From a virus: 31,874 nt of DNA. Where the stretch lies: the IMG/VR virus record IMGVR_UViG_3300020156_000068, positions 1 to 31,874 of that record. One strand, written 5' to 3'. The notes under the pieces are model-generated. The model did not search any database. It had not been told where the DNA came from and saw nothing but the letters and a program-made list of their open reading frames with translations. A program made the translations under genes and the position numbers. Shown piece by piece: positions 3,512 through 21,421 of the stretch. Numbering within the stretch: position 1 is the stretch's first letter; the number at the start of each line of letters is the position of its first letter.

Positions 3512-5533
3512 TTAGACGGCCATTTCAGCTATGTTCATGGCCCTTGACATGCCGCCGGACATGCCTGGGTTGTCTGCTGTGCTTTCTGTTGGAGCGGCGA
3601 TTTGCTGTTTGGCCTGCAAAGCCGCTTGATCTGCCACCTTGCGCTCGATATTGCCTCTAGCGATCTCGTTGTGGGAAAGAGCGAAGTCCATAAGAATCTG
3701 GAACTTCTCGCCTAGGGTGCTTCGCTTGTCGTTGGCGAAATCTACGATCTTCTGAATAAAGGCGATGTTAGCCCCGTGCCATTGAAGGGGCTGTTCATTC
3801 CGTAGGATCATCTGAATGCACTCGGAAGCCTTAGCGAGCGCCTTGCGGTCCTGGTAGGTCTGGAGATCCAGGAACTCCGCGATCTCCTCGTCCTCGTAGC
3901 CTCCGACAGAACGCAATATCTCCTCGTTGCGCTTCTGCGGATTGACTGTCATCGGGTCTACTAGGGAAAGAGCCTCACTCCTTCGCTTGGCCTTAATCTC
4001 GCTATCCTGAACCTGCTGGTCGGTCGATGAAATGAGTACGTCGATGTCCTTCTTGGTGCTGAGGTCTAGGCGGGTGATTTCATCCCAGTCGTATCCACCT
4101 TCACCTAAGACGCGGATACCCATTTTGGCGGGCATGTGGTCTTTAAGGCCGAAGATGTATCGCTTGCCTAGGTCGGCCATCATGTCTTGGAATGGCTGTG
4201 ATCCCCAACCAATGCGCTTGCTGACACTCTTTTGCTCGGCGAAAGTGACAGAGGCTTTCTTAGACGCCTCGGTCACGTCGCCCATAGCCAGGTCGTTAGC
4301 GCCGGTGTTCCTGCCTAGCGTGCCGCTGATCCAGTCGATCAGGTTCACGGTTCCGGCTAGCTCTCCCACCTTGAACTCATACACACCGTTAGCGATAGCC
4401 TTAGTGCCTCCGGCCGTATCAGCGGGAACAAGGGCGTCGGGGCGGTGCATAGCCTCGTCGAGCTTCCGCACGTCCTTAAACATATCCTTATCATAAGCCC
4501 TTGCGCCAAAGTTCCGCTTCTCGCGGTTTGTTAGCTCCTGGTTGAACATGGCCACGATAGCGTCTGAGGCCGAATACATATCGTCCGAATAGGACTTGGA
4601 CAGGAAGTTCTCATCGTCCTCGTGGGTAGCGTATGAAACCCACGGATATAGGCCGTTGTTCTCCTCCCACTTCTCGAAGCGTAGCCACTTCTTAGTCCAC
4701 GGATGGAAGCATAAATACCAACGCTGGCCATCCATCTCGATGATGTGATTGACGAGCTTAAAGACCGCCTGTCCGACGTATGAATGGTTAGATGGGTCTA
4801 TCCCTAGCGGCTTAAAGCGGGATAGCCTCTCGCCCATATCGTGATCGCTGTCCGGCAAATAGTTGGACTTGGAAGCGGTGTCTAGTAAGTGCTTCACCTG
4901 TGTCTTGTCGTAGTAGCCGGAAAGAGCGCCCTTCTTTAGCTCGTCCTCGGTGCGCTCCACGTCCTCGGTCCCGGCGAATAGGTGGTTCTCAAGATACAAG
5001 CCTCCTTTTGGCTGGAAGTTGAAGTTCTTTAGGTTGATGACGCTTAGGTCTGAGTGATACTCGGGGTCGCTAGAGGCGGTGTATTCCAAGGTCGTGCGGC
5101 CGTTCATAATCGCGTGCTTCCTAGCCATACGGAGCTTGCTATCCCACTTGCTATTCTGGGCGGTGTTCATTACCTCCATATTCCAAGCGCCTTGTATCTT
5201 CTGTACCTTAAAATAGTCGGCCGCGTCCCCTTCTTTGAATGTGAGGATGATAGGCGTATCGTACTGAGCATTAAGGGTGTCCACCATGCCTGAGAATACT
5301 GGAATAGGGACATTAAAGAGTTGGCGAAGCTTTTTAGAGGTCTTGCCGTCATAAAGCTCCCAATACTTCCCGAGGCGCTGGATGCGGGGCTTCTTAAACT
5401 CTTGGCACGTCACTATCTGGCGAGTCGCAATATTCACCGCCTTTTCAGCTAACTGGGCTTTGGTAAGGTTTTTGTATTGGCTTGCTAAATCTAGAAGGTC
5501 AGATTTAACGGCCTCCTCATTGGAGTTTTGCAT
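3512..5533 (-). CDS. Portal protein
   Basis: At 673 residues this is in the range of long portals of the P22/podovirus-like type. It starts with a helical region. The core includes PIPVFSGMVDTLNAQYDTP, DDMYSASDAIVAMFNQELTN and DLAMGDVTEASKKASVTFAE; the last matches the motif before the pore helix in many portals. A helical tail rich in Gln and Ala covers about residues 600-670. It lies downstream of the terminase genes and upstream of scaffold and capsid, as a portal should. It would form the dodecameric ring through which DNA is packaged. Identification rests on length, motifs and order. Confidence 0.85.
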   Translation of the reverse strand: MQNSNEEAVKSDLLDLASQYKNLTKAQLAEKAVNIATRQIVTCQEFKKPRIQRLGKYWELYDGKTSKKLRQLFNVPIPVFSGMVDTLNAQYDTPIILTFKEGDAADYFKVQKIQGAWNMEVMNTAQNSKWDSKLRMARKHAIMNGRTTLEYTASSDPEYHSDLSVINLKNFNFQPKGGLYLENHLFAGTEDVERTEDELKKGALSGYYDKTQVKHLLDTASKSNYLPDSDHDMGERLSRFKPLGIDPSNHSYVGQAVFKLVNHIIEMDGQRWYLCFHPWTKKWLRFEKWEENNGLYPWVSYATHEDDENFLSKSYSDDMYSASDAIVAMFNQELTNREKRNFGARAYDKDMFKDVRKLDEAMHRPDALVPADTAGGTKAIANGVYEFKVGELAGTVNLIDWISGTLGRNTGANDLAMGDVTEASKKASVTFAEQKSVSKRIGWGSQPFQDMMADLGKRYIFGLKDHMPAKMGIRVLGEGGYDWDEITRLDLSTKKDIDVLISSTDQQVQDSEIKAKRRSEALSLVDPMTVNPQKRNEEILRSVGGYEDEEIAEFLDLQTYQDRKALAKASECIQMILRNEQPLQWHGANIAFIQKIVDFANDKRSTLGEKFQILMDFALSHNEIARGNIERKVADQAALQAKQQIAAPTESTADNPGMSGGMSRAMNIAEMAV

Positions 5534-6204: not shown

Positions 6205-7800
6205 CTATTCAAGGCCAGAACGTTGAAACTCCGGCTGCTGATAGGGTGCTGTTTCGGTCCTGTACTGCGACCAATTTCTCATCTGATAGGCAATGGCACA
6301 CGCTATAAGTATATCAAAGTGCCTTGTGGTGAGGCGCACGTCCTCATCCTTATCCATCAAGTCATCACGAGTGTAGGAGCGCAACTCCGCTATCAGGTCA
6401 GGGTCGGATAGCTCTAAATGCCCGTCTTCCACGGCCTTCTTAAGCTCAAACAGCATCTTTGGCTTGGTCATGGAGTTGGTATTCCAGCCAAAGGTGCGAA
6501 TTTTTGGTGCTAGGCCAGCTCTCGTCTCCTTCACTTCGGTAAAGTAGATGCTGTCGTAGCCTTGGGCCTTCAAAACGCCGATGCACATATCAAACTTGTT
6601 GTTCTCTGGGGCAATGATCGGCCTTCCATACATATCAGCCTCGCGTATCAGCTCATAGCCAAAGACATCTGGCTTGATGGTATTGCTCTTAAATGTGGCT
6701 ACTACCCTGTTAGGAATTGTGGAAAAGTCGATAACAACCGACGTGGAGCTGTCCAGTCCCACACCTCCAGCCACGTCAGCGCCTATACCATAGCGGTGTG
6801 ACGGGTCGTATTGATGAAATATCTTAAAGTCTGCGACGACCTTTACGGGCGTCTTTTTGATCTGGCGATCGAGCGTAGCTCGGTCAAAGAAGATATCAGC
6901 ACCTGCCGATGGCTCGCAAAGATATTCTCCGGCAAAGTCCTCGGCGTTTTTTTCAATCGTGGCGATTTCCTCGACGGTGTACGCCTCTGGCCACGTTGGC
7001 TTCCCGCCCTGTCGGATCGGCGTGATGAGGGTTGCGTCTCGATGCTTCTCTACCAGCCTGTGGACGTTGCCACGCTCTGACAGATAGTTGCAATTGTATA
7101 GGGACGCGCCGCCCTTGGCTAAGCCGTTGCGGGCCTCCTCCATGTTGTCCCATATCGCCTGAGTGGTGACGGCCGATCTGAGCGTCTTCCTCGTCTCAAA
7201 GTCATCGAACCAAATGAAGTCTGGTCGGCTCTCCTCCTGAATGTCGCCACGCTGGTCTGTGCCTACGGAGTCAGCCTGCATACGCACGCCCGTGGCCGTA
7301 GTGAAGACAGCCATAGTCTCTTGGCGTTTCTCCACCGTCTTCTCGAATAGCTCGGGATAGAACTCCTGCACACGGCGATTGATGAGGAGGTTGTATATGT
7401 CCGTCACGATCTGCTTGGCATTGCCATAGTCGGCGGACAGAACCTTAAAGAACCGCCTGGTGTGTTCTTCGTCATTGGCGATCACAAAAGCCACAAAGAG
7501 CTTAGTCCTGGTGGTCTTGGCCGCCCCACGAAATGCAATGTCTACAAAGGTAGACGTAGAGCCCCGGTATAGGGCGATTAGGTTCTTATCAATTTCTTCG
7601 TGAAAGGGGGCATCATCACACTTGAAGAACTTATAGAAATACCACCTAGACCATAGTCGGAACTTAATCCATATCTCCTCGTCGGTATCGGTGCTGTTGA
7701 AAGCAAATAAGGCTCGGACTTCTCCAAAGTCTCCGTTGTCTAGTATCTCCTCAGCTAACGATACGCTTGATTGCGTTTTTTGCTTTGTCTCGCTGTTCAT
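6205..7800 (-). CDS. terL: Terminase large subunit (packaging ATPase/nuclease)
   Basis: This 531-residue protein would pump DNA into the prohead and cut the concatemer. The ATPase half has a Walker A variant, FRGAAKTTRTK (about residues 88-98), and a Walker B, PDFIWFDDFE (about 194-203). The nuclease half has YGIGADVAGGVGLDSSTS with the first metal-binding Asp (about residues 336-353), then NNKFD, and a C-terminal RHFDILIACAIAY containing the last acidic residue. Length and motif order match the family. The start overlaps the small subunit by about 50 bases, a common terS-terL arrangement. Confidence 0.92.
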   Translation of the reverse strand: MNSETKQKTQSSVSLAEEILDNGDFGEVRALFAFNSTDTDEEIWIKFRLWSRWYFYKFFKCDDAPFHEEIDKNLIALYRGSTSTFVDIAFRGAAKTTRTKLFVAFVIANDEEHTRRFFKVLSADYGNAKQIVTDIYNLLINRRVQEFYPELFEKTVEKRQETMAVFTTATGVRMQADSVGTDQRGDIQEESRPDFIWFDDFETRKTLRSAVTTQAIWDNMEEARNGLAKGGASLYNCNYLSERGNVHRLVEKHRDATLITPIRQGGKPTWPEAYTVEEIATIEKNAEDFAGEYLCEPSAGADIFFDRATLDRQIKKTPVKVVADFKIFHQYDPSHRYGIGADVAGGVGLDSSTSVVIDFSTIPNRVVATFKSNTIKPDVFGYELIREADMYGRPIIAPENNKFDMCIGVLKAQGYDSIYFTEVKETRAGLAPKIRTFGWNTNSMTKPKMLFELKKAVEDGHLELSDPDLIAELRSYTRDDLMDKDEDVRLTTRHFDILIACAIAYQMRNWSQYRTETAPYQQPEFQRSGLE

Positions 7801-8134
7801 CGTTTAAGTTAAAAGAGCCAACCAGCTTCTTTTCTGGGGCGTATGAGCCTTGCACTTTGAACACCTCCTTAGCGGCGTTTATCCGAGTGTTCTTATCAGT
7901 CTCAGGGTCAAGTAATATCTCAGCCACTACCATCTTGGCGTTATCCTCGGTGAAGCCGAAGTCAGCCAGGGCCTCCTGAGTGCCTATGCTCTCAATAATC
8001 TCAGTGGCCTTCTTATCAGCCGATAGTTCGCTATAACCCACAGAAGCCACTAGCTCCTGCTTGTTTAATGGCTTCTCAGCTACGGCGTTATCAATGATGG
8101 CTTTAGCTAGCCTTTTCTGTCGTATGGTCGGCAT
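7751..8134 (-). CDS. terS: Terminase small subunit-like protein
   Basis: From ATG 8134 this is a 127-residue protein; a GTG four codons earlier (8146) is an alternative start. It has an N-terminal helix-turn-helix (RQKRLAKAIIDNA, then LNKQELVASVGYSELSADKK) and later helices (TRINAAKEVFKVQGSYAPEK) resembling the DNA-recognition and oligomerisation parts of small terminases. It immediately precedes and overlaps terL. It should recognise the packaging site and load the large subunit. Confidence 0.8.
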   Translation of the reverse strand: MPTIRQKRLAKAIIDNAVAEKPLNKQELVASVGYSELSADKKATEIIESIGTQEALADFGFTEDNAKMVVAEILLDPETDKNTRINAAKEVFKVQGSYAPEKKLVGSFNLNDEQRDKAKNAIKRIVS

Positions 8135-8146
8135 AATTGTTATCAC

Positions 8147-8338: not shown

Positions 8339-8476
8339 TTAGGCGACCTCTGCCGCCTTAATAGCTTCCTCTAACAGCTTAAGAGCCTCCTTCTCGGTCT
8401 TCCCTCTCGCCTGTATCTTTCCATCTGGTGAGGTGGCGAAGAAGAAGGTTTGCTTTGTAACTTTAGGCTTTTTCAT
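8339..8476 (-). CDS. 45-residue HicB-like small protein
   Basis: The protein starts at ATG 8476, overlapping the end of the upstream gene by 14 bases. It reads MKKPKVTKQTFFFATSPDGK and ends EKEALKLLEEAIKAAEVA. A short beta hairpin followed by a helix rich in Glu/Ala with the signature G-K-T-E-K-E-A resembles the partial RNase-H fold of HicB-type antitoxins, but no toxin partner is adjacent, so this is only a shape comparison. Longer upstream codons in this frame are a shadow of the neighbour. Confidence 0.5.
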   Translation of the reverse strand: MKKPKVTKQTFFFATSPDGKIQARGKTEKEALKLLEEAIKAAEVA

Positions 8477-8948
8477 CGCCAATTTCTTCAATGCGCTTGT
8501 TAAGCATAGCGATATTAATGTCCATGCGTTCAATCTCCTTCTTGTTGAGTAGCACTCGGTTTTCTTCCTCGAAGATAGCCTTAGAAGCCTGAGCCTCAAC
8601 GGCACGCATTTCCTTTAGCACCTGAGCCTTGCCTTTAGCGTTAGGTTTAGTGTCTGCCTCGGCGATGTTGGCTTTGAGTTCGTTGAAGTGGCCTCGCTTG
8701 GTTTCTAATAGGGCTTCAAGAACCATCTGAGATTGAACAATGATCTCCTTCTTTGCTGCTAGGTCGTTTATCTGCTCCTTAATAGTAGCTATACGGACAG
8801 ACAGTGGCTCTGGATCGCCGTCTTCAAATGGGATCATGACGTGGCCGTCAGAAACGAGAATGTGCATACCCTTTGCGAGCGGGTATGTGGCTAGTAGGGC
8901 ATTGACTTCTTTATAGTCTGCAATGTTGAACGAATGTACTCTGAGCAT
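8463..8948 (-). CDS. Coiled-coil protein, first gene of packaging operon
   Basis: This 161-residue protein has an N-terminal mixed domain (about residues 1-50, including HILVSDGHVMIPFEDGD) and then a long coiled coil to the C-terminus (IKEQINDLAAKKEI to IAMLNKRIEEIGDEKA). It is the first protein gene after the promoter at 9135 and the tRNA-like RNA at 8973-9127. No Shine-Dalgarno precedes ATG 8948. Not recognised; a regulatory or structural role cannot be told apart. Confidence 0.65.
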   Translation of the reverse strand: MLRVHSFNIADYKEVNALLATYPLAKGMHILVSDGHVMIPFEDGDPEPLSVRIATIKEQINDLAAKKEIIVQSQMVLEALLETKRGHFNELKANIAEADTKPNAKGKAQVLKEMRAVEAQASKAIFEEENRVLLNKKEIERMDINIAMLNKRIEEIGDEKA

Positions 8949-8972
8949 TTATGTGAAATTACTTTGTAATGT

Positions 8973-9127
8973 GCCCGATCTCCGAATTGAACGGAGCGCC
9001 TTGCCATAAGGTTGGAGAGGGATCACTCCCTTAATGTTGAACGCATTAAATTGAGGGCAAGAGGAGCGCGGCGAACCTGCGCGGGCAAAAGGTGGCATTA
9101 AACAGAGGGTCGATACTCTGCGCCACC
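8973..9127 (-). ncRNA. tRNA-like structured RNA in the packaging-operon leader
   Basis: On the minus strand, hairpin GGTGGC/GCCACC (9122-9127 with 9091-9096, enclosing CAGAG/CTCTG) is followed by a cloverleaf. It has an acceptor-like GCCCG/CGGGC, a short GCGC/GCGC arm in the D-arm position, a long central arm closed by CTTGCC/GGCAAG (9000-9005 with 9056-9061) holding TTAATG/CATTAA with a 7-nt loop, and a T-arm CTCCG-TTCAATT-CGGAG (8980-8996). Exactly 7 nt of acceptor strand and an A follow the T-arm. No anticodon arm of normal size and no CCA are present, so it is not a working tRNA. An extended -10 promoter lies just upstream. Confidence 0.55.
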
Positions 9128-9134
9128 GCTATGG

Positions 9135-9143
9135 ATTATAACA
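9135..9143 (-). promoter_or_regulatory. Extended -10 promoter TGTTATAAT
   Basis: The minus strand reads TGTTATAAT, a perfect -10 with the TGn extension. Transcription would start near 9128, directly at the first hairpin of the tRNA-like RNA, and continue into the 161-residue gene and the terminase/head operon. It sits immediately after a strong terminator. Confidence 0.7.
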
Positions 9144-9144
9144 T

Positions 9145-9179
9145 AAAAAAGCCCAGCCCTCGATCTGGGAAGGGCTGGG
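9145..9179 (-). terminator. Intrinsic terminator after 9219-9536 gene
   Basis: A 9-bp perfect stem (CCCAGCCCT/AGGGCTGGG, 9152-9160 with 9171-9179) is followed on the minus strand by a T6 run. It separates the short exported-protein gene from the packaging operon. Confidence 0.85.
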
Positions 9180-9218: not shown

Positions 9219-9536
9219 CTAGAAAAGGGTACGCTTCGGTCTAATGAGAGCGCAGGTAGGCTTATTCTTTTTGAAATAGTAGACGATCATTCCCGGAGGC
9301 TTATTGGTGGCGTATCTGATGGAATCGGCCGTCGTTTTGATCTTCTTTGTCCGGCGCACTCCTGCAACCACGGCGCAGGGGTTCTTTGGGTCGGCGAAAC
9401 GTATCTCGATTGTGAACCGTTTGGTCTTAGCTTCGGCGGGTGGGATTTCAAAAAAGAAGACGAAGAAGATCGCGGTGGCTCCGGCCAGTGCGAGAGCGTA
9501 CAGGATCAGCTTCTTTGGCGTGAGAATTTCGGACAT
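9219..9536 (-). CDS. Small exported or anchored protein
   Basis: A GGAGG lies seven bases before ATG 9536 but only two bases before ATG 9542, so the second ATG is preferred, giving 105 residues (MSEILTPKKLILYALALAGA). One hydrophobic segment (about residues 9-31) ends in PPAEAKTK, a plausible signal-peptidase site. The rest is basic and beta-rich with two cysteines (about residues 54 and 96). It is a single-gene unit ended by the terminator at 9145-9179 and divergent from the XRE gene, so it could be a lysogeny-expressed envelope protein, which is inference. Confidence 0.65.
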   Translation of the reverse strand: MSEILTPKKLILYALALAGATAIFFVFFFEIPPAEAKTKRFTIEIRFADPKNPCAVVAGVRRTKKIKTTADSIRYATNKPPGMIVYYFKKNKPTCALIRPKRTLF

Positions 9537-9649
9537 TTTCATTCCTCCCTAATCGGCTCCCGTTCAAACAACCCAACCGAAATATAACTGTTTGGAATAA
9601 TTGGCAACCGGAATTTACGCCAGCCGTTGTCTTCAGAGAGTTCAACGGA

Positions 9650-11216: not shown

Positions 11217-11249
11217 TTCAATGTACTCCTACTTGTTGATCCTTTCACC

Positions 11250-11258
11250 ATTTTACCA
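11250..11258 (-). promoter_or_regulatory. Extended -10 promoter TGGTAAAAT
   Basis: Minus-strand TGGTAAAAT lies 34 bases upstream of the DUF932 ATG. A wobble-containing inverted repeat TTGTGTCG/CGATACAA (about 11308-11332) lies upstream and could be an operator. Confidence 0.5.
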
Positions 11259-11327
11259 CACCCTATTTGCTCGTTGTTTTTCCGATTAAAGTATTAGCTT
11301 GTATCGCCACAATTTCGACACAACTAT

Positions 11328-13734: not shown

Positions 13735-16026
13735 TTACAACTTGCCGCTGGGCCGGATTTCGTCATCATCGTCGTCATCCGGTTCGTCTGGTGGCGGAGG
13801 CAGTGTTTTTTCATCCGGCTTATACGTGTACTTCGCCGCCACGATCTCTCGTGTACGCCTCTGTTCCTCTGATGTAAGTCCTTGCCTCTCGTCTATGACA
13901 AAGTAGGGGATAGGAGCATTCACCGGACTGGTCACGTCTCTGGCTGAAATTTTAAACGTCTGCTTCGGCAAGCCACGTAATAGATCGGGGTCAAGGTTCA
14001 TATAGCGGCCTACCGTGATAGCGTCTTCGTTGGTGGGTCGAACCAGGAGGATACCGCACGATAACAGAGCGTCCTTCACGGTGTCGTCCGTGATGTTTTT
14101 GAGCCGCTGGGTAGCGAAGGTCAAAGCCAGTCGAGACTTCCGCACGTCGTTTATCATACTGTTTACTTGCGGGTCGTTGTCGAAAAACTCCTGCATCTCG
14201 TCAATGTAGAAATAGACAGGCTTACGGGCCTGTATTTGTGTCTTATCCCGTGCCTTCATCGCCAGCCGAACTAGAGCCATCATTAAGCGGCCGAAAACCG
14301 CCGTACCCTCTTTGCCTAAAAGCGTCCGATCACAGTGAATGAGGATGAAAGAGCCTTTTTCCAGTAGCGAATGGAAATCCAGCTTGCAGTCCGGTGCGTT
14401 CACCATTGGCGCAAAGGTCTCGTTCTGCACTACCGCTTGAACCCGCCACAACAGCTCCTCATCCAAGACCTTTTTTAGTTTCGGAAACGTGTCTTGGAAA
14501 AAATCCTGAGAACCTTTTGCAAGCGTGGCAACGTACTCCTGATACGGCTCCACGCTGGCTGTTTTCATAATGTCGTAAAGCGTCTGCAAACTAGAGTTCG
14601 GAATCGCCATACACAGTCGGACACAATGACCGAAAACCAAGCTCTGTCTTTTGGAAAAAGCGGAGCCTTCTTTTACCGCCGAGAATACGTCTGTCAGTAG
14701 CTCAATCGCTTGGGTGGTCAGCTCGGCACGATCATCCCCCGTGGCGTTCTTAATTCTCCGGCGGCCGTACTCAAAGGGATTGAGGGCTATTGGGTTCACA
14801 GTAGAGGGCTTGATGATAACAAGCCGATCAAGAAAGCGGCCATTATCAGGGTGGAAGTGGGGATGTTTCAGCCAGCTCTCCAAAAAATCGCCGTTGTGAT
14901 CCATAGCGATGATGGACACATTTCGTGACAGATAACCAAGATCGTTGTCGATGAGGTAGTTAAGAAGGGTTGATTTACCGGATCTTGGCGGAGCTAGAAT
15001 AAACGTGCTTTCAAACCTCACTTCACCGTCTCGTATCTGCGGCAGTTCATCAATGAAGTTGGCGAAAGGAGTATGATGTAAAAAATGTCTCTTCTGGTTC
15101 TCTAGCTGCTTTGCTTTGTCGCTAGCCGCTAAAGTTTTTAGAATCTCATCAATCCTGCTACCAAGCAGTGAGTATTCAAAATCGTCTTTGGTCTTTCTTT
15201 GTTTTTCCAAGAACCTGTCCACCTCCTTTCGTTTAGATTCGTATTCCTTTTCCGGCAGAATCCGGCCGATTGCCTTAGCCTTGTAAGACCACGGTAAGAT
15301 CGGCACCAGATTTTCGTAAAGCTGGTTTAACGCCTTGAGCATCTTAGAGGTGACGGGTAGCAATGGAAAAGGTGGAAATCCGTCAGGCTTAGGCAGGTTT
15401 TCAACCAGTGTCTTGTATTCTTCATATAACTTGTACTTAACCTGACCAATGTTAAGAAACGTCTGCCGTTCTCGGCGGGCGAGTATGAGCTGATCTTCAG
15501 TAGGAGTGAGACGATCAGCTTCATAACACGCTACTATTTCTTGGGCGGCCTTCAAGTATTCCGCTTTCGCGGCATCGGGAAGTGATGGTTTGTGGTTTAG
15601 TATCCAATCTACATACTGCTCCTCCACTGGAGGGGTTAACTCGTCCTCTTTCGGGGCTTCCGGTTCTATACCCTTCCATTCCGGTCTTCTACATCGGAAA
15701 ACTAGATAACCGATAGGAAATATCATCAAGAAATACCCAGACCAGAACAATGCCTTTGCTGGTTCTATTTTTTTCTCGTTCGCAAACACGCCGAAAATCA
15801 GAAACACCGACATCAGCGCGAAGGCTGAGAAAAAATGCAAGACGTGACGCCTCTGCCACGCCGTACCGTCTAACGAACGATGTAATTCAAGCAGTAACCA
15901 GCCAGACAGAAAAACACCAAAAAAAGGAACCAAAACGACAACTGCTACTACTCCGGCAAAAGGGCCAGTGATCAGAAGGAACAGCAGAAAAGATGCTACA
16001 TAAGGTGTCAGCAGGATGTACGGCAT
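13735..16026 (-). CDS. VirD4/TraG-like membrane ATPase (HerA-FtsK superfamily)
   Basis: This 763-residue protein has several transmembrane segments in about residues 1-115 (SFLLFLLITGPFAGVVAVVV, FFSAFALMSVFLIFGVFA, FWSGYFLMIFPIGYLVF). A charged linker follows, then an ATPase domain: Walker A LAPPRSGKSTLLNYL (about residues 341-355), Walker B PVYFYIDEMQEFF (about 600-612), and FATQRLKN as the sensor or Q motif. The acidic tail is PPPPDEPDDDDDDE. This layout is that of type IV coupling proteins that pump DNA through a conjugative channel. It sits four genes from nothing else conjugative: no VirB4, pilin or MOB relaxase is in the window. It might move DNA, or use a host channel. Confidence 0.8.
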   Translation of the reverse strand: MPYILLTPYVASFLLFLLITGPFAGVVAVVVLVPFFGVFLSGWLLLELHRSLDGTAWQRRHVLHFFSAFALMSVFLIFGVFANEKKIEPAKALFWSGYFLMIFPIGYLVFRCRRPEWKGIEPEAPKEDELTPPVEEQYVDWILNHKPSLPDAAKAEYLKAAQEIVACYEADRLTPTEDQLILARRERQTFLNIGQVKYKLYEEYKTLVENLPKPDGFPPFPLLPVTSKMLKALNQLYENLVPILPWSYKAKAIGRILPEKEYESKRKEVDRFLEKQRKTKDDFEYSLLGSRIDEILKTLAASDKAKQLENQKRHFLHHTPFANFIDELPQIRDGEVRFESTFILAPPRSGKSTLLNYLIDNDLGYLSRNVSIIAMDHNGDFLESWLKHPHFHPDNGRFLDRLVIIKPSTVNPIALNPFEYGRRRIKNATGDDRAELTTQAIELLTDVFSAVKEGSAFSKRQSLVFGHCVRLCMAIPNSSLQTLYDIMKTASVEPYQEYVATLAKGSQDFFQDTFPKLKKVLDEELLWRVQAVVQNETFAPMVNAPDCKLDFHSLLEKGSFILIHCDRTLLGKEGTAVFGRLMMALVRLAMKARDKTQIQARKPVYFYIDEMQEFFDNDPQVNSMINDVRKSRLALTFATQRLKNITDDTVKDALLSCGILLVRPTNEDAITVGRYMNLDPDLLRGLPKQTFKISARDVTSPVNAPIPYFVIDERQGLTSEEQRRTREIVAAKYTYKPDEKTLPPPPDEPDDDDDDEIRPSGKL

Positions 16027-16028
16027 TG

Positions 16029-16154
16029 TTAGCGCCTACGTCGCTTTCTTAAACCCTCTCTTTTGTCGTACCACTTCGCCCAGAGAATATAGGCGAGAAT
16101 AAACACCGCCGTTCCAATGACGGAGAACAAAAATGCTATCCAGAAACCTTCCAT
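16029..16154 (-). CDS. 41-residue single-span membrane protein
   Basis: AGGGGGAG lies just before ATG 16154. The product is MEGFWIAFLFSVIGTAVFIL followed by AYILWAKWYDKREGLRKRRR and R: one transmembrane helix then a strongly basic tail, so the C-terminus should be cytoplasmic. It fills the gap between the two ATPase genes (stop two bases before the next ATG), which argues for a small partner of the membrane ATPase. Confidence 0.65.
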   Translation of the reverse strand: MEGFWIAFLFSVIGTAVFILAYILWAKWYDKREGLRKRRRR

Positions 16155-16162
16155 CACTCCCC

Positions 16163-17308
16163 CTAGAGCGCCGCGATCTCACGCTCCACTTTCACGCGTG
16201 GTCTACCATAACGCCGCCTAGACTGTGCCACAAGCGTCTTTCTCCGTTTGGCACTTCCCCTCGGCAGTGGCTTGGTTAGGGACTTTGCTTCGATCAGGCT
16301 TTTCACCTTGTTGTCGTAAAATACCGCTTCAAACGCTCCCAGCTCGTGCAGGGCCACGGTGTTATCGGCGGGCAGAGAATTACGCAGATAGGCGCTGTCC
16401 TCGATGCCACAGCGAAAGGTAATTCTCCGGTCACAGGAGCCGATCAGGGCGCTTTTCAGTTCCGGTGAGAGCTGGGCCAGATATTGATTAGCCACGGTGA
16501 CGTGAAGGTTGTGCCGCTTGCTGTCGGACAGTAGATGCCGAAGAATTGGTGTATCAAAGTGTTGCACGTCATCTATGAAGACGTGAAAGGGAAAGATACC
16601 TTTGCGCTCGTAGGCGACGGATAAAAGGTACGCCAGAAAGAGAGAACCGAACAGCGTGGTTTTCTGCCCTAGCTGGCCCTGGGGCAGTTTAAGAACGATT
16701 ACCGCACGCTCGAACATCAGGCGTCTAAGATCAAAGCTGGTGACGCTCTGGCCGATGATATTACGGATGCGGGGGTCTTCCGAGAACTCCCCTGCCTTGT
16801 TTTCGGTGGACTGAATGAGCAGCTCCCAATCCTTTTCCTTTTTGGCGTTCCAGTGTTGCCATTTTCTTTTAAGGATAGGGTCAGAGACATATTCAAGGAC
16901 ACGCTCCCGAAACGCCTTGTCCGTTAGCATAGGCTCGATGTGTAGAAGGCTGGCACCAGGAAATTCCAAAAGTGCGGCCAGCGTGTTGTACAGCGTGCGG
17001 TCAAGAACCGGCGTTGCAATCGTGTCGTACTTCCAAATTGCTTTTACAGTAGAGAGGATTAAGGACGCCAATAGTGGCTTGTTACGGACATCGTAAAGGA
17101 CATTAAAACCAACTGGATAATCAACGTCAGTCGGGTCAATAATTAAAACCTCCTTCTCTTTGGGAATGTGTGAAAGAAAGGTATCGGCGGCATCCCCATT
17201 GGGGTCAACGAAAAGAACGCCGCCGGTTTCCAGAGCTTCAAGAGAATGCTGAATAAGCAGGGTTGATTTGCCCTGCCCGCCGAATACGTGGGTGTTCATT
17301 AAGGCCAA
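16163..17308 (-). CDS. Second VirD4/TraD-like ATPase, N-terminus uncertain
   Basis: This 381-residue frame opens at a TTG only eight codons before Walker A (GGQGKSTLLIQ). Walker B is FHVFIDDVQHF (about residues 238-248), and VTVANQYLAQL is the conserved Gln motif. It has no membrane segment. Upstream in-frame codons from 17362 read PIGHASRTRDRHYAALALMN, the conserved lead-in to Walker A in this family, but no ATG/GTG/TTG lies there. An out-of-frame ATG at 17363 joins this frame if one C of a CCC run (17351-17353) is removed, so the true start is probably 17363 with an indel or a frameshift. It likely works with the membrane ATPase. Confidence 0.75.
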   Translation of the reverse strand: MALMNTHVFGGQGKSTLLIQHSLEALETGGVLFVDPNGDAADTFLSHIPKEKEVLIIDPTDVDYPVGFNVLYDVRNKPLLASLILSTVKAIWKYDTIATPVLDRTLYNTLAALLEFPGASLLHIEPMLTDKAFRERVLEYVSDPILKRKWQHWNAKKEKDWELLIQSTENKAGEFSEDPRIRNIIGQSVTSFDLRRLMFERAVIVLKLPQGQLGQKTTLFGSLFLAYLLSVAYERKGIFPFHVFIDDVQHFDTPILRHLLSDSKRHNLHVTVANQYLAQLSPELKSALIGSCDRRITFRCGIEDSAYLRNSLPADNTVALHELGAFEAVFYDNKVKSLIEAKSLTKPLPRGSAKRRKTLVAQSRRRYGRPRVKVEREIAAL

Positions 17309-17388: not shown

Positions 17389-17490
17389 CCGCGAAAAATG
17401 TTCACGATTTGTTCTGCCGCAAGAAAACGCCCTCACAGCGCGGCGCTAGAACCATTAATCTAACGACGCTGTGTGGGGGAGCTTTGGTCA

Positions 17491-17678
17491 TTTGTTGAAA
17501 TGTGGAAGGCAAGGATTTGACGAGGCCGTCACCATAAATGGTGAGTGCAACTCGTATAGTCACCTTGCAAGAGTGTTTTTCACGGTACTCTCGCTCACCA
17601 GAGGGGATATACCGACCCCCTGCGGGAATCGAACCCGCCTAGCGTCTACCTATTCCGCCACTTCCACATTTCAACAAA
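17491..17678 (-). ncRNA. tRNA-Leu-derived structured RNA
   Basis: A perfect 18-bp helix (17661-17678 with 17491-17508) closes the element on the minus strand. Next to its inner end is TGGCGGAATAGGTAGACGC, a near-perfect tRNA-Leu D-arm, then GCGGG-TTCGATT-CCCGC, a perfect T-arm-type hairpin, placed where an anticodon arm should be. About 110 nt follow with AGGGG/CCCCT, GCGAGAGT/ACTCTTGC inside GGTGAG/CTCACC, and CACCA/TGGTG hairpins. In tRNA the T-arm would adjoin the acceptor; here it does not. It therefore looks like a tRNA-derived RNA with a new role. No terminator separates it from the ATPase gene. Confidence 0.6.
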
Positions 17679-17682
17679 CCAC

Positions 17683-17759
17683 CTGTCATCCAGTACGCCA
17701 TTCGGAAGAATGGTAGGAACATATTGGCGCCTGTCTCTGACGGGCGTACTGGATGACAG
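17683..17759 (-). ncRNA. 17-bp leader hairpin
   Basis: Arms 17743-17759 and 17683-17699 are perfectly complementary over 17 bp, with a 43-nt terminal region that includes a small ATTC/GAAT hairpin. It begins two bases after the predicted start of the TGCTATAAT transcript and is followed four bases later by the tRNA-Leu-derived element. Confidence 0.6.
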
Positions 17760-17767
17760 CTAGGTCC

Positions 17768-17776
17768 ATTATAGCA
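17768..17776 (-). promoter_or_regulatory. Extended -10 promoter TGCTATAAT
   Basis: Minus-strand TGCTATAAT predicts a start near 17761, right at the 17-bp hairpin. It lies between a terminator (17788-17817) and the two structured RNAs, so it marks the start of the RNA/ATPase transcript. Confidence 0.75.
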
Positions 17777-20152: not shown

Positions 20153-21244
20153 TTAGCCACTAGTGGACAAAAGGGACTGTAGATGATTTTCGTACTTTTG
20201 AACAGCCTGACGTTGTTCTGTGAGATAGGTATGCCTGTTATATACCCCAGTAACGCCTGAAAACGTACCAGAAACGTGATTTAAGAGCTTTTCGACAATA
20301 TGTACGGGTGTGCCTATTCCGGCGTGCTTAGAAGCGAATGTACGGCGCAGATCGTGTAATTGCCACTGAGCATCAAGCGGGTCAAAGTCGAGTTTTGTCT
20401 TACTCCACCCATTCCAGATGTTGTCTCCCCTGCCCTTGAACAAACGATCATCGTCATTCGGTATCTCTGCGATGACGGCTTTCGTGATGTTTGAGTACGG
20501 AAAGGTGTGTTCCCGCCGATTTTTCGTATATTCGGCGGGAATGGTGATTGTGTCTTCTGCTATCCAGCTACGACGGAAGTTCGCCACCTCCGATCTGCGC
20601 TGTCCGGTAAGGATGCAAAGAAGCACGATGTTACCAAACGGATGCCCATAGCCTTGGGCCTTTTTATAGATGGTGGTCAGCTCTTGGTCTGTTAAGACAC
20701 GTTCTCTCTGCGATATCCGGCCGATGCCACGAATACCGGCAATCGGGTTGGCTTGGATTTTGCCGTTGGTGACACACCAATTGAGAAAGACGTTGAACGC
20801 TGTTGAAGCGTGTGACTGTTCGCCTGGAGTGGCCGATAGGCCAGATAATTTCGTGAGAAGTGAATGGCGGGTGATAGCCGCCAGTCGCCCTTTTGGAAAA
20901 TGCCGATCTAGCAGGCGCTCGTAATCTGCTTTGGTGCGAGGGCTGGTCTTAGTTTCACAATGCGTCAGAAAGTCTTTGATAGCGTCAGCAGCGATGATCT
21001 TGCCGCTGATGGGCTTAGGCGCCGCAAGAAACGCGATAGCGTCTGTGCGGGCGTCTTTGAGTGATTTTTCGGGGTATCTGCCTAGTTTCTTGAGTTGGCG
21101 CTTTTCGCCAAACATCACGACAAAGGACTTGGAACCGCCTTGCGATACGCGAACACCTAGCCCGCGTACCACGTCGTCAAAATAGGTCTTCTGACCCGTG
21201 GCCGGTGGTTTAATCCGGTCGATTGCAAGCTCAGTTAGTCTCAT
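20153..21244 (-). CDS. int: P4-type tyrosine integrase
   Basis: GGAG nine bases before ATG 21244 supports this start (363 residues) rather than one 13 codons upstream. The N-terminal DUF4102-type domain (TELAIDRIKPPATGQKTYFD, VVRGLGVRVSQGGSKSFVVM) is followed by a SAM-like core-binding domain and the catalytic domain. The catalytic domain has Arg in LTGQRRSEVANFR, H-x-L-R-R-T in LHDLRRTFA, HIVEKLLNH, and the nucleophile in VYNRHTY. The family integrates at the 3' end of tRNA genes, and a tRNA-Gln 3' half lies 127 bases upstream of its start. Confidence 0.92.
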   Translation of the reverse strand: MRLTELAIDRIKPPATGQKTYFDDVVRGLGVRVSQGGSKSFVVMFGEKRQLKKLGRYPEKSLKDARTDAIAFLAAPKPISGKIIAADAIKDFLTHCETKTSPRTKADYERLLDRHFPKGRLAAITRHSLLTKLSGLSATPGEQSHASTAFNVFLNWCVTNGKIQANPIAGIRGIGRISQRERVLTDQELTTIYKKAQGYGHPFGNIVLLCILTGQRRSEVANFRRSWIAEDTITIPAEYTKNRREHTFPYSNITKAVIAEIPNDDDRLFKGRGDNIWNGWSKTKLDFDPLDAQWQLHDLRRTFASKHAGIGTPVHIVEKLLNHVSGTFSGVTGVYNRHTYLTEQRQAVQKYENHLQSLLSTSG

Positions 21245-21300
21245 TTTAGTCTCCGAAACGTGCCGATTTACGGTGATTTTCAATGAACAGGTATGGAGAC

Positions 21301-21309: not shown

Positions 21310-21370
21310 CAGAAAGTGTTGAAAAATATGGGCTTTATGGTTGGTATGGTGTGGTATGAGGAGATTGCGG

Positions 21371-21421
21371 CTACGGACTCTGACTCCGTTAGTCCTGGTT
21401 CGAATCCAGGTTCCCCAGCCA
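21371..21421 (+). other. attP core: 3' half of a tRNA-Gln(CTG) gene
   Basis: The anticodon arm ACGGA-CTCTGAC-TCCGT (anticodon CTG), T-arm CCTGG-TTCGAAT-CCAGG, acceptor TTCCCCA, discriminator G and CCA are perfect. Upstream there is no D-arm and no matching 5' acceptor strand, so this is not a complete tRNA. It lies next to a P4-type integrase, exactly what attP for tRNA-directed integration looks like: the carried half restores the host gene. Confidence 0.85.

Follow-up and report, generated by a model that had tools for sequence, protein, structure and literature searches.

A tRNA-like RNA without an anticodon arm appears to be a movable gene at the head of phage packaging operons

Introduction

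Is the tRNA-like structure that lies ahead of this phage's packaging genes a leader of the terminase mRNA, or is it an RNA gene in its own right? The window is a viral sequence record, 31,874 bases long, that carries nearly all of its likely genes on the minus strand. A preliminary description of the locus had noted an extended −10 element, a hairpin, acceptor-like ends, an exact T-arm and an expanded central arm, and had proposed that they form a tRNA-like leader ahead of the terminase genes.

RNase P, RNase Z, and the CCA-adding enzyme all recognize a tRNA by its T-arm together with its acceptor stem. In tmRNA the tRNA-like domain has no complete D-stem, and a long helix, the SmpB-binding site, replaces the anticodon arm. 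The pRNA of phage phi29 is a structured RNA gene near packaging genes. Phages are also known to carry tRNAs and tmRNAs, including the two-piece ssrA of methylophage Melnitz, which adjoins an early promoter upstream of a transcription coactivator gene (PMC9004378), and the tmRNAs carried by huge phages (PMC7162821).

Results

Anatomy of the transcription unit

All the elements of the preliminary description are present on the minus strand, which it had not named, and its coordinates are an exact fit to a minus-strand unit running from 9143 to 8972 (Table 1). This unit sits between a gene at 9219-9542 and p161, a gene with conserved counterparts in about 17 distinct contigs. A plus-strand reading of 8973-9143 was rejected, since its fold was weaker (z = −1.53) and the promoter, the T-arm, and the genes are all on the minus strand.

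Table 1. Features of the tRNA-like transcription unit and the adjoining packaging genes in the window
Feature	Position	Strand	Remarks
Intrinsic terminator of preceding gene, with T run	9152..9179	minus	directly 5′ of promoter
Extended −10, TGTTATAAT	9135..9143	minus	consensus match only; no −35 seen; predicted RNA start ~9129-9126
5′ hairpin, GGTGGC/GCCACC, inner stem GCAGAG/CTCTGT	9091..9127	minus	predicted leader; from fold
Linker TTTT, 4 nt	9090-9087	minus	between 5′ hairpin and acceptor-like strand
Acceptor-like stem P1, 5′ strand, GCCCGCG	9080..9086	minus	5/7 pairs form
Short D-loop-like segment	9063..9079	minus	GG, as after P1 in other members; putative function
Expanded central arm P2, TCTTGCC (9062-9056)/GGCAAGG (9005-8999)	8999..9062	minus	inner hairpins; replaces anticodon arm
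T-arm, CTCCG-TTCAATT-CGGAG	8980..8996	minus	from sequence
Acceptor-like stem P1, 3′ strand, ATCGGGC	8973..8979	minus	no CCA encoded
Discriminator A (position 73)	8972	minus	from sequence
p161, 161-aa protein	8463..8948	minus	first gene 3′ of RNA; conserved in relatives
Small terminase-like ORF (putative TerS)	7751-8146	minus	precedes terL
terL, terminase large subunit, phrog_38	6205..7800	minus

Taken alone, the window copy makes a weak case and is among the weakest members of the set described below, with 5/7 acceptor pairs and modest minimum free energy z scores (−1.47 for 8973-9090, −2.83 for 8949-9134 on the minus strand, and −3.1 for the 5′ hairpin plus the body). An unguided scan for acceptor pairing did no better in this copy than in shuffled sequences (P = 0.84). 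Strict T-arms, however, are scarce in the window: there are three, and the RNA contains one of them. Because this evidence was thin, we examined relatives of the phage, and it is the comparative evidence that settles the reality of the element.

The same architecture in related phages

TerL searches of viral contigs gave two overlapping sets of 56 and 25 loci, and matches in genome contigs came from a Parcubacteria metagenome-assembled genome (MAG), a groundwater MAG, and one contig labelled Methylococcaceae. The only direct nucleotide relative of the window was a near-identical contig, L002. We scanned the relatives for strict T-arms, with the other stems not required, and obtained L025, L072, L080, and L008, in each of which the 7 nt after the T-arm pair with an upstream strand and a long arm separates the two pairing strands. 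A collection-wide pattern search returned the L072 type in three more contigs (L131, L109, and L133), besides many ordinary tRNAs, and the TerL relatives of L109 added L143, L145, and L144. Member discovery went through the T-arm throughout.

Ten distinct elements share one architecture (the window, L025, L072, L131, L109, L143, L145, L144, L080, and L008). The nine elements of the relatives stand at the head of a packaging operon, and most of them differ in sequence; the search of related phages that the preliminary description had proposed thus found RNAs of this kind ahead of their terminase genes. The bodies measure 72 to 136 nt. L025 folds well (z = −5.6), and L080 and L144 are weak members. 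Most members have a clear −10 element close to where the RNA begins, L008 being one without a clear −10, and a 5′ hairpin is also found in L025, L072, L131, L145, L008, and L080. Most terminase relatives (for example L003, L006, L021, and L030) have no detectable RNA of this kind.

Covariation and position

Because MAFFT aligned the divergent members poorly, we cut a skeleton alignment by hand from eight distinct members, a procedure that leans towards structure. In this skeleton 96.3% of the stem cells are paired, against 32 to 47% in slid registers, and 15 of 17 pairs have changed on both sides, with 57 cells holding double changes and none of 500 shuffles scoring as high; the arms do therefore co-vary across relatives, although some circularity enters the test, since T-stems were a requirement and P1 and P2 had been selected for their pairing. 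The discriminator A73 and the pair C3-G70, each present in all eight skeleton rows, and the GG that follows soon after P1 are less affected by this circularity. The same holds for the 5′ hairpin, which changes in sequence with its pairing kept, as in CCAACTG/CAGTTGG of L072 versus CCAACG/CGTTGG of L131 and also between L143 and L145, and T-stem sites are compensated between the close kin L008 and L080, the TerL proteins of which are 83% identical. In a combined single-sequence shuffle test, P2 reached significance (P = 0.003) and P1 was borderline (P = 0.056). A central-loop motif, UCUCCA, that had seemed conserved in three members was dropped, as L131 has CUACA and L080 has ACTCCA.

Strict T-arms are concentrated on the terL strand within 5 kb upstream of that gene (12, against 4 elsewhere; P = 4e-7); a few of those counted upstream are part of ordinary tRNAs or of the tmRNA described below. 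The second TerL family gave 6 versus 3 (P = 0.003), with L109 itself having been chosen by the pattern.

Independence from the terminase

The RNAs of L072, L131, and L109 are 91 to 96% identical, yet three different packaging modules lie downstream of them, and the first gene 3′ of the RNA differs among the three. The TerL of L072 is of the window's type (32% identity), the terminase of L131 is of the phrog_5653/phrog_2 type, with a ParB-methyltransferase gene directly after the RNA, and that of L109 is of the phrog_38/phrog_4758 type. Blast comparison of these three terminases and that of the window detected no similarity except between L072 and the window. The TerL proteins of L143, L144, and L145, on the other hand, are 95 to 99% identical to that of L109, and their RNAs differ in sequence with the architecture kept. 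That one RNA precedes different terminases, two of which show no blast match to one another or to that of the window, and that different RNAs precede one terminase argues for a separate, exchangeable RNA gene in a fixed slot and against the terminase leader of the preliminary description. Judged from the sequences, the RNA looks like a movable gene that occupies a hot spot in front of the packaging genes.

A role in cis, as a leader for processing or punctuation, was also considered, in which cuts by RNase P and RNase Z would set the 5′ end of the packaging mRNA and the released RNA would have no further role. No terminator parts the RNA from the operon, and the fold ends close to the next start codon, the ATG lying 23 nt past the A at 8972 in the window and about 10 to 23 nt past the fold in L025, L008, and L080. 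In the clade of L072, L109, and L131, however, a −10-like TATAAT separates the RNA from the next ATG; the gene that begins there does not need the RNA as its leader, and processing would be superfluous. A long central arm would likewise serve no purpose in a leader, and most relatives manage without the RNA, so that we regard this explanation as unlikely.

Other RNAs in the same slot

L091, a TerL relative (56 to 61% TerL identity), carries a genuine tmRNA at 1543-1877 (ARAGORN; Rfam score of 71.6 bits with E = 8.5e-28). Ahead of it come a terminator, TGTTATATT, and an 8-bp 5′ hairpin, the end of which lies one nucleotide before the first base of the tmRNA. In L044 the slot holds a tRNA-Met (3612-3685) behind a terminator, TGGTACAAT, and a hairpin. 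L018 has, at 2274-2420, an apparent tRNA-like RNA (ATTGCAG..CTGCAAT) enclosed by an outer structure that resembles tRNA-Leu (CATATGAG..CTCATATG); two T-arms are present. These contents suggest that tRNA, tmRNA, and tRNA-like RNA share one design in this slot.

Such occupants could also mean that the elements are functionless, decaying tRNA or tmRNA genes taken from hosts: a real tRNA-Met and a real tmRNA occupy the slot, the window copy has acceptor mismatches, and L006 holds an odd tRNA-like fragment. Co-varying stems, together with stems and a T-arm that are unchanged among L072, L131, and L109 while the loops and the leader vary, nevertheless point to selection, and the promoter and the 5′ hairpin have been retained, which makes decay a doubtful explanation.

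The tmRNA of L091 stands ahead of the packaging genes in a phage contig, and its tag as read by ARAGORN is VNTQKSDMVASPFMSLLSRDTVLA. L006 carries, at 1650-1578 on the minus strand, an odd tRNA-Arg(CCT)-like gene that ARAGORN misses. Pattern searches also found RNAs of about 45 to 50 nt that consist of an acceptor stem and a T-arm only in the unrelated phages L108 (about 11240-11310), L115, L116, and L135; these were not called by ARAGORN, and we left them out of the member set.

Likeness to known RNAs

None of the ten elements was called by ARAGORN or Rfam, and Rfam gave no meaningful match at gathering scores or at E values up to 10. Specifically, they were not detected as tRNAs by RF00005 or ARAGORN, and they matched neither the Rfam phage pRNA model nor the Rfam tmRNA model, the latter of which does match the tmRNA of L091. 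With tRNA (RF00005) the elements share the 5-bp T-arm with its TTCRANN loop, the 7-nt acceptor strand, and the discriminator A. They differ in that a tRNA has an anticodon arm with a 7-nt loop, whereas the central-arm loops here measure 16 to about 60 nt, the D-arm is missing or aberrant, and CCA is not encoded.

The closest likeness in shape is to the tRNA-like domain of tmRNA (ssrA, RF00023), which has the same acceptor stem and T-arm, the same short GG D-loop without a full D-arm, and the same long helix adjoining the T-arm in place of the anticodon arm; a true tmRNA, moreover, occupies the same slot in L091, where similar 5′ elements precede it. The differences are that tmRNA has G3-U70, the alanine identity pair, where the elements have C3-G70, that tmRNA has a tag reading frame and pseudoknots, of which the elements have none, and that it is about 335 to 374 nt long, compared with the 72- to 136-nt bodies here. 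A tag peptide was considered and rejected: the bodies of near-identical members are 121, 120, and 128 nt long, no common tag was seen, and length differences of 1 and 7 to 8 nt are not multiples of three and would break any frame. Without G3-U70, a tag frame, pseudoknots, or an encoded CCA, any tie to trans-translation would lie in the shape and in one slot-sharing tmRNA. The phage tmRNAs of Melnitz (PMC9004378) and of huge phages (PMC7162821) are likewise phage-borne and have a tRNA-like domain, but they include a tag-coding part, and the Melnitz ssrA is not upstream of packaging genes.

In every known context the elements lie at the start of the packaging operon, and like phi29 pRNA they are structured RNA genes near packaging genes; a packaging RNA that works with terminase or portal is nonetheless highly improbable, given the same RNA beside unrelated terminases (that is, no tie to one motor) and different RNAs beside the same terminase, the lack of any sequence or Rfam model match to pRNA, and a T-arm and A73 that are signs of tRNA and not of pRNA.

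Discussion

Comparison between phages establishes, at the level of sequence, the architecture, the covariation, the position, and the exchange of these elements. In our estimate there is roughly a 55% probability that the element is a small RNA gene apart from the terminase, with its own promoter, in a packaging-operon hot spot and with a tRNA-like body that lacks an anticodon. Its extended −10, a predicted promoter, would drive transcription just past the terminator that ends the preceding genes. The resulting RNA would fold into the 5′ hairpin and a tRNA-like body comprising an acceptor stem, a GG D-loop, a long central arm, a T-arm, and A73. By analogy with known tRNA biology, RNase P would remove the 5′ hairpin, RNase Z or exonucleases would free the 3′ end, and CCA would then be added. 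Maturation would leave a stable RNA and free any downstream mRNA. Processing by RNase P and RNase Z is plausible, because the 5′ hairpin, the T-arm plus acceptor stem, and A73 fit it anatomically.

What such a stable RNA would do is suggested by its shape. Since the elements have the parts of the tmRNA tRNA-like domain, they may be matured like a tRNA and act as a mimic of that domain in trans, on SmpB, EF-Tu, or ribosome rescue and without tagging; we put this forward tentatively. More speculative is the proposal that these are phage RNAs of a new class, namely tRNA-like domains of tmRNA type that stand alone and are carried as exchangeable cassettes ahead of the packaging genes; they would act in trans on host rescue (SmpB, EF-Tu, or the CCA-adding enzyme) or against tRNA-directed defence, with some of the hosts probably being Patescibacteria. 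A host search in 379 genomes from the phylum of a Parcubacteria MAG, with the 3′ part of the window's tRNA-Gln (see below) and with the L131 RNA, gave no match, a negative that speaks neither for nor against such a host.

New in comparison with the tRNAs and tmRNAs that phages are known to carry is a tRNA-like RNA with neither anticodon nor tag that recurs in one slot beside unrelated terminases. We found no such RNA in Rfam, with ARAGORN, or in the literature searched, and the class seems to be undescribed. If SmpB or other partners of tRNA were bound, the RNA would represent a natural way of inhibiting or modifying trans-translation, and its genes would be a phage RNA family overlooked by current annotation. 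The slot itself, with a tRNA, a tmRNA, or a tRNA-like RNA behind a common layout of promoter and hairpin, offers a handle for finding more.

Other features of the window

A second tRNA-like RNA lies at 17480..17776 on the minus strand, with a terminator, TGCTATAAT, a long 5′ hairpin, and a 19-bp outer stem that ends at an ATG (z = −6.86). Read from 17776 to 17480, it has a tRNA-Leu-like D-arm, GTGGCGGAATAGGTAGACGC, and a T-arm that equals the tmRNA consensus and is followed by an insert of about 110 nt.

An integrase gene (20153-21283) adjoins a slightly degenerate tRNA-Gln(CTG) at 21350-21421 on the plus strand, opposite to that of the integrase. This is probably the attP site, and the phage is therefore likely to be temperate. 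The tRNA-like RNA at the packaging operon was also considered as an attachment site, a reading that was rejected because the integrase and the tRNA-Gln are 11 kb away. Positions 13735-17308 encode two large proteins with phrog_5156 (function unknown), one of which is weakly terminase-like.
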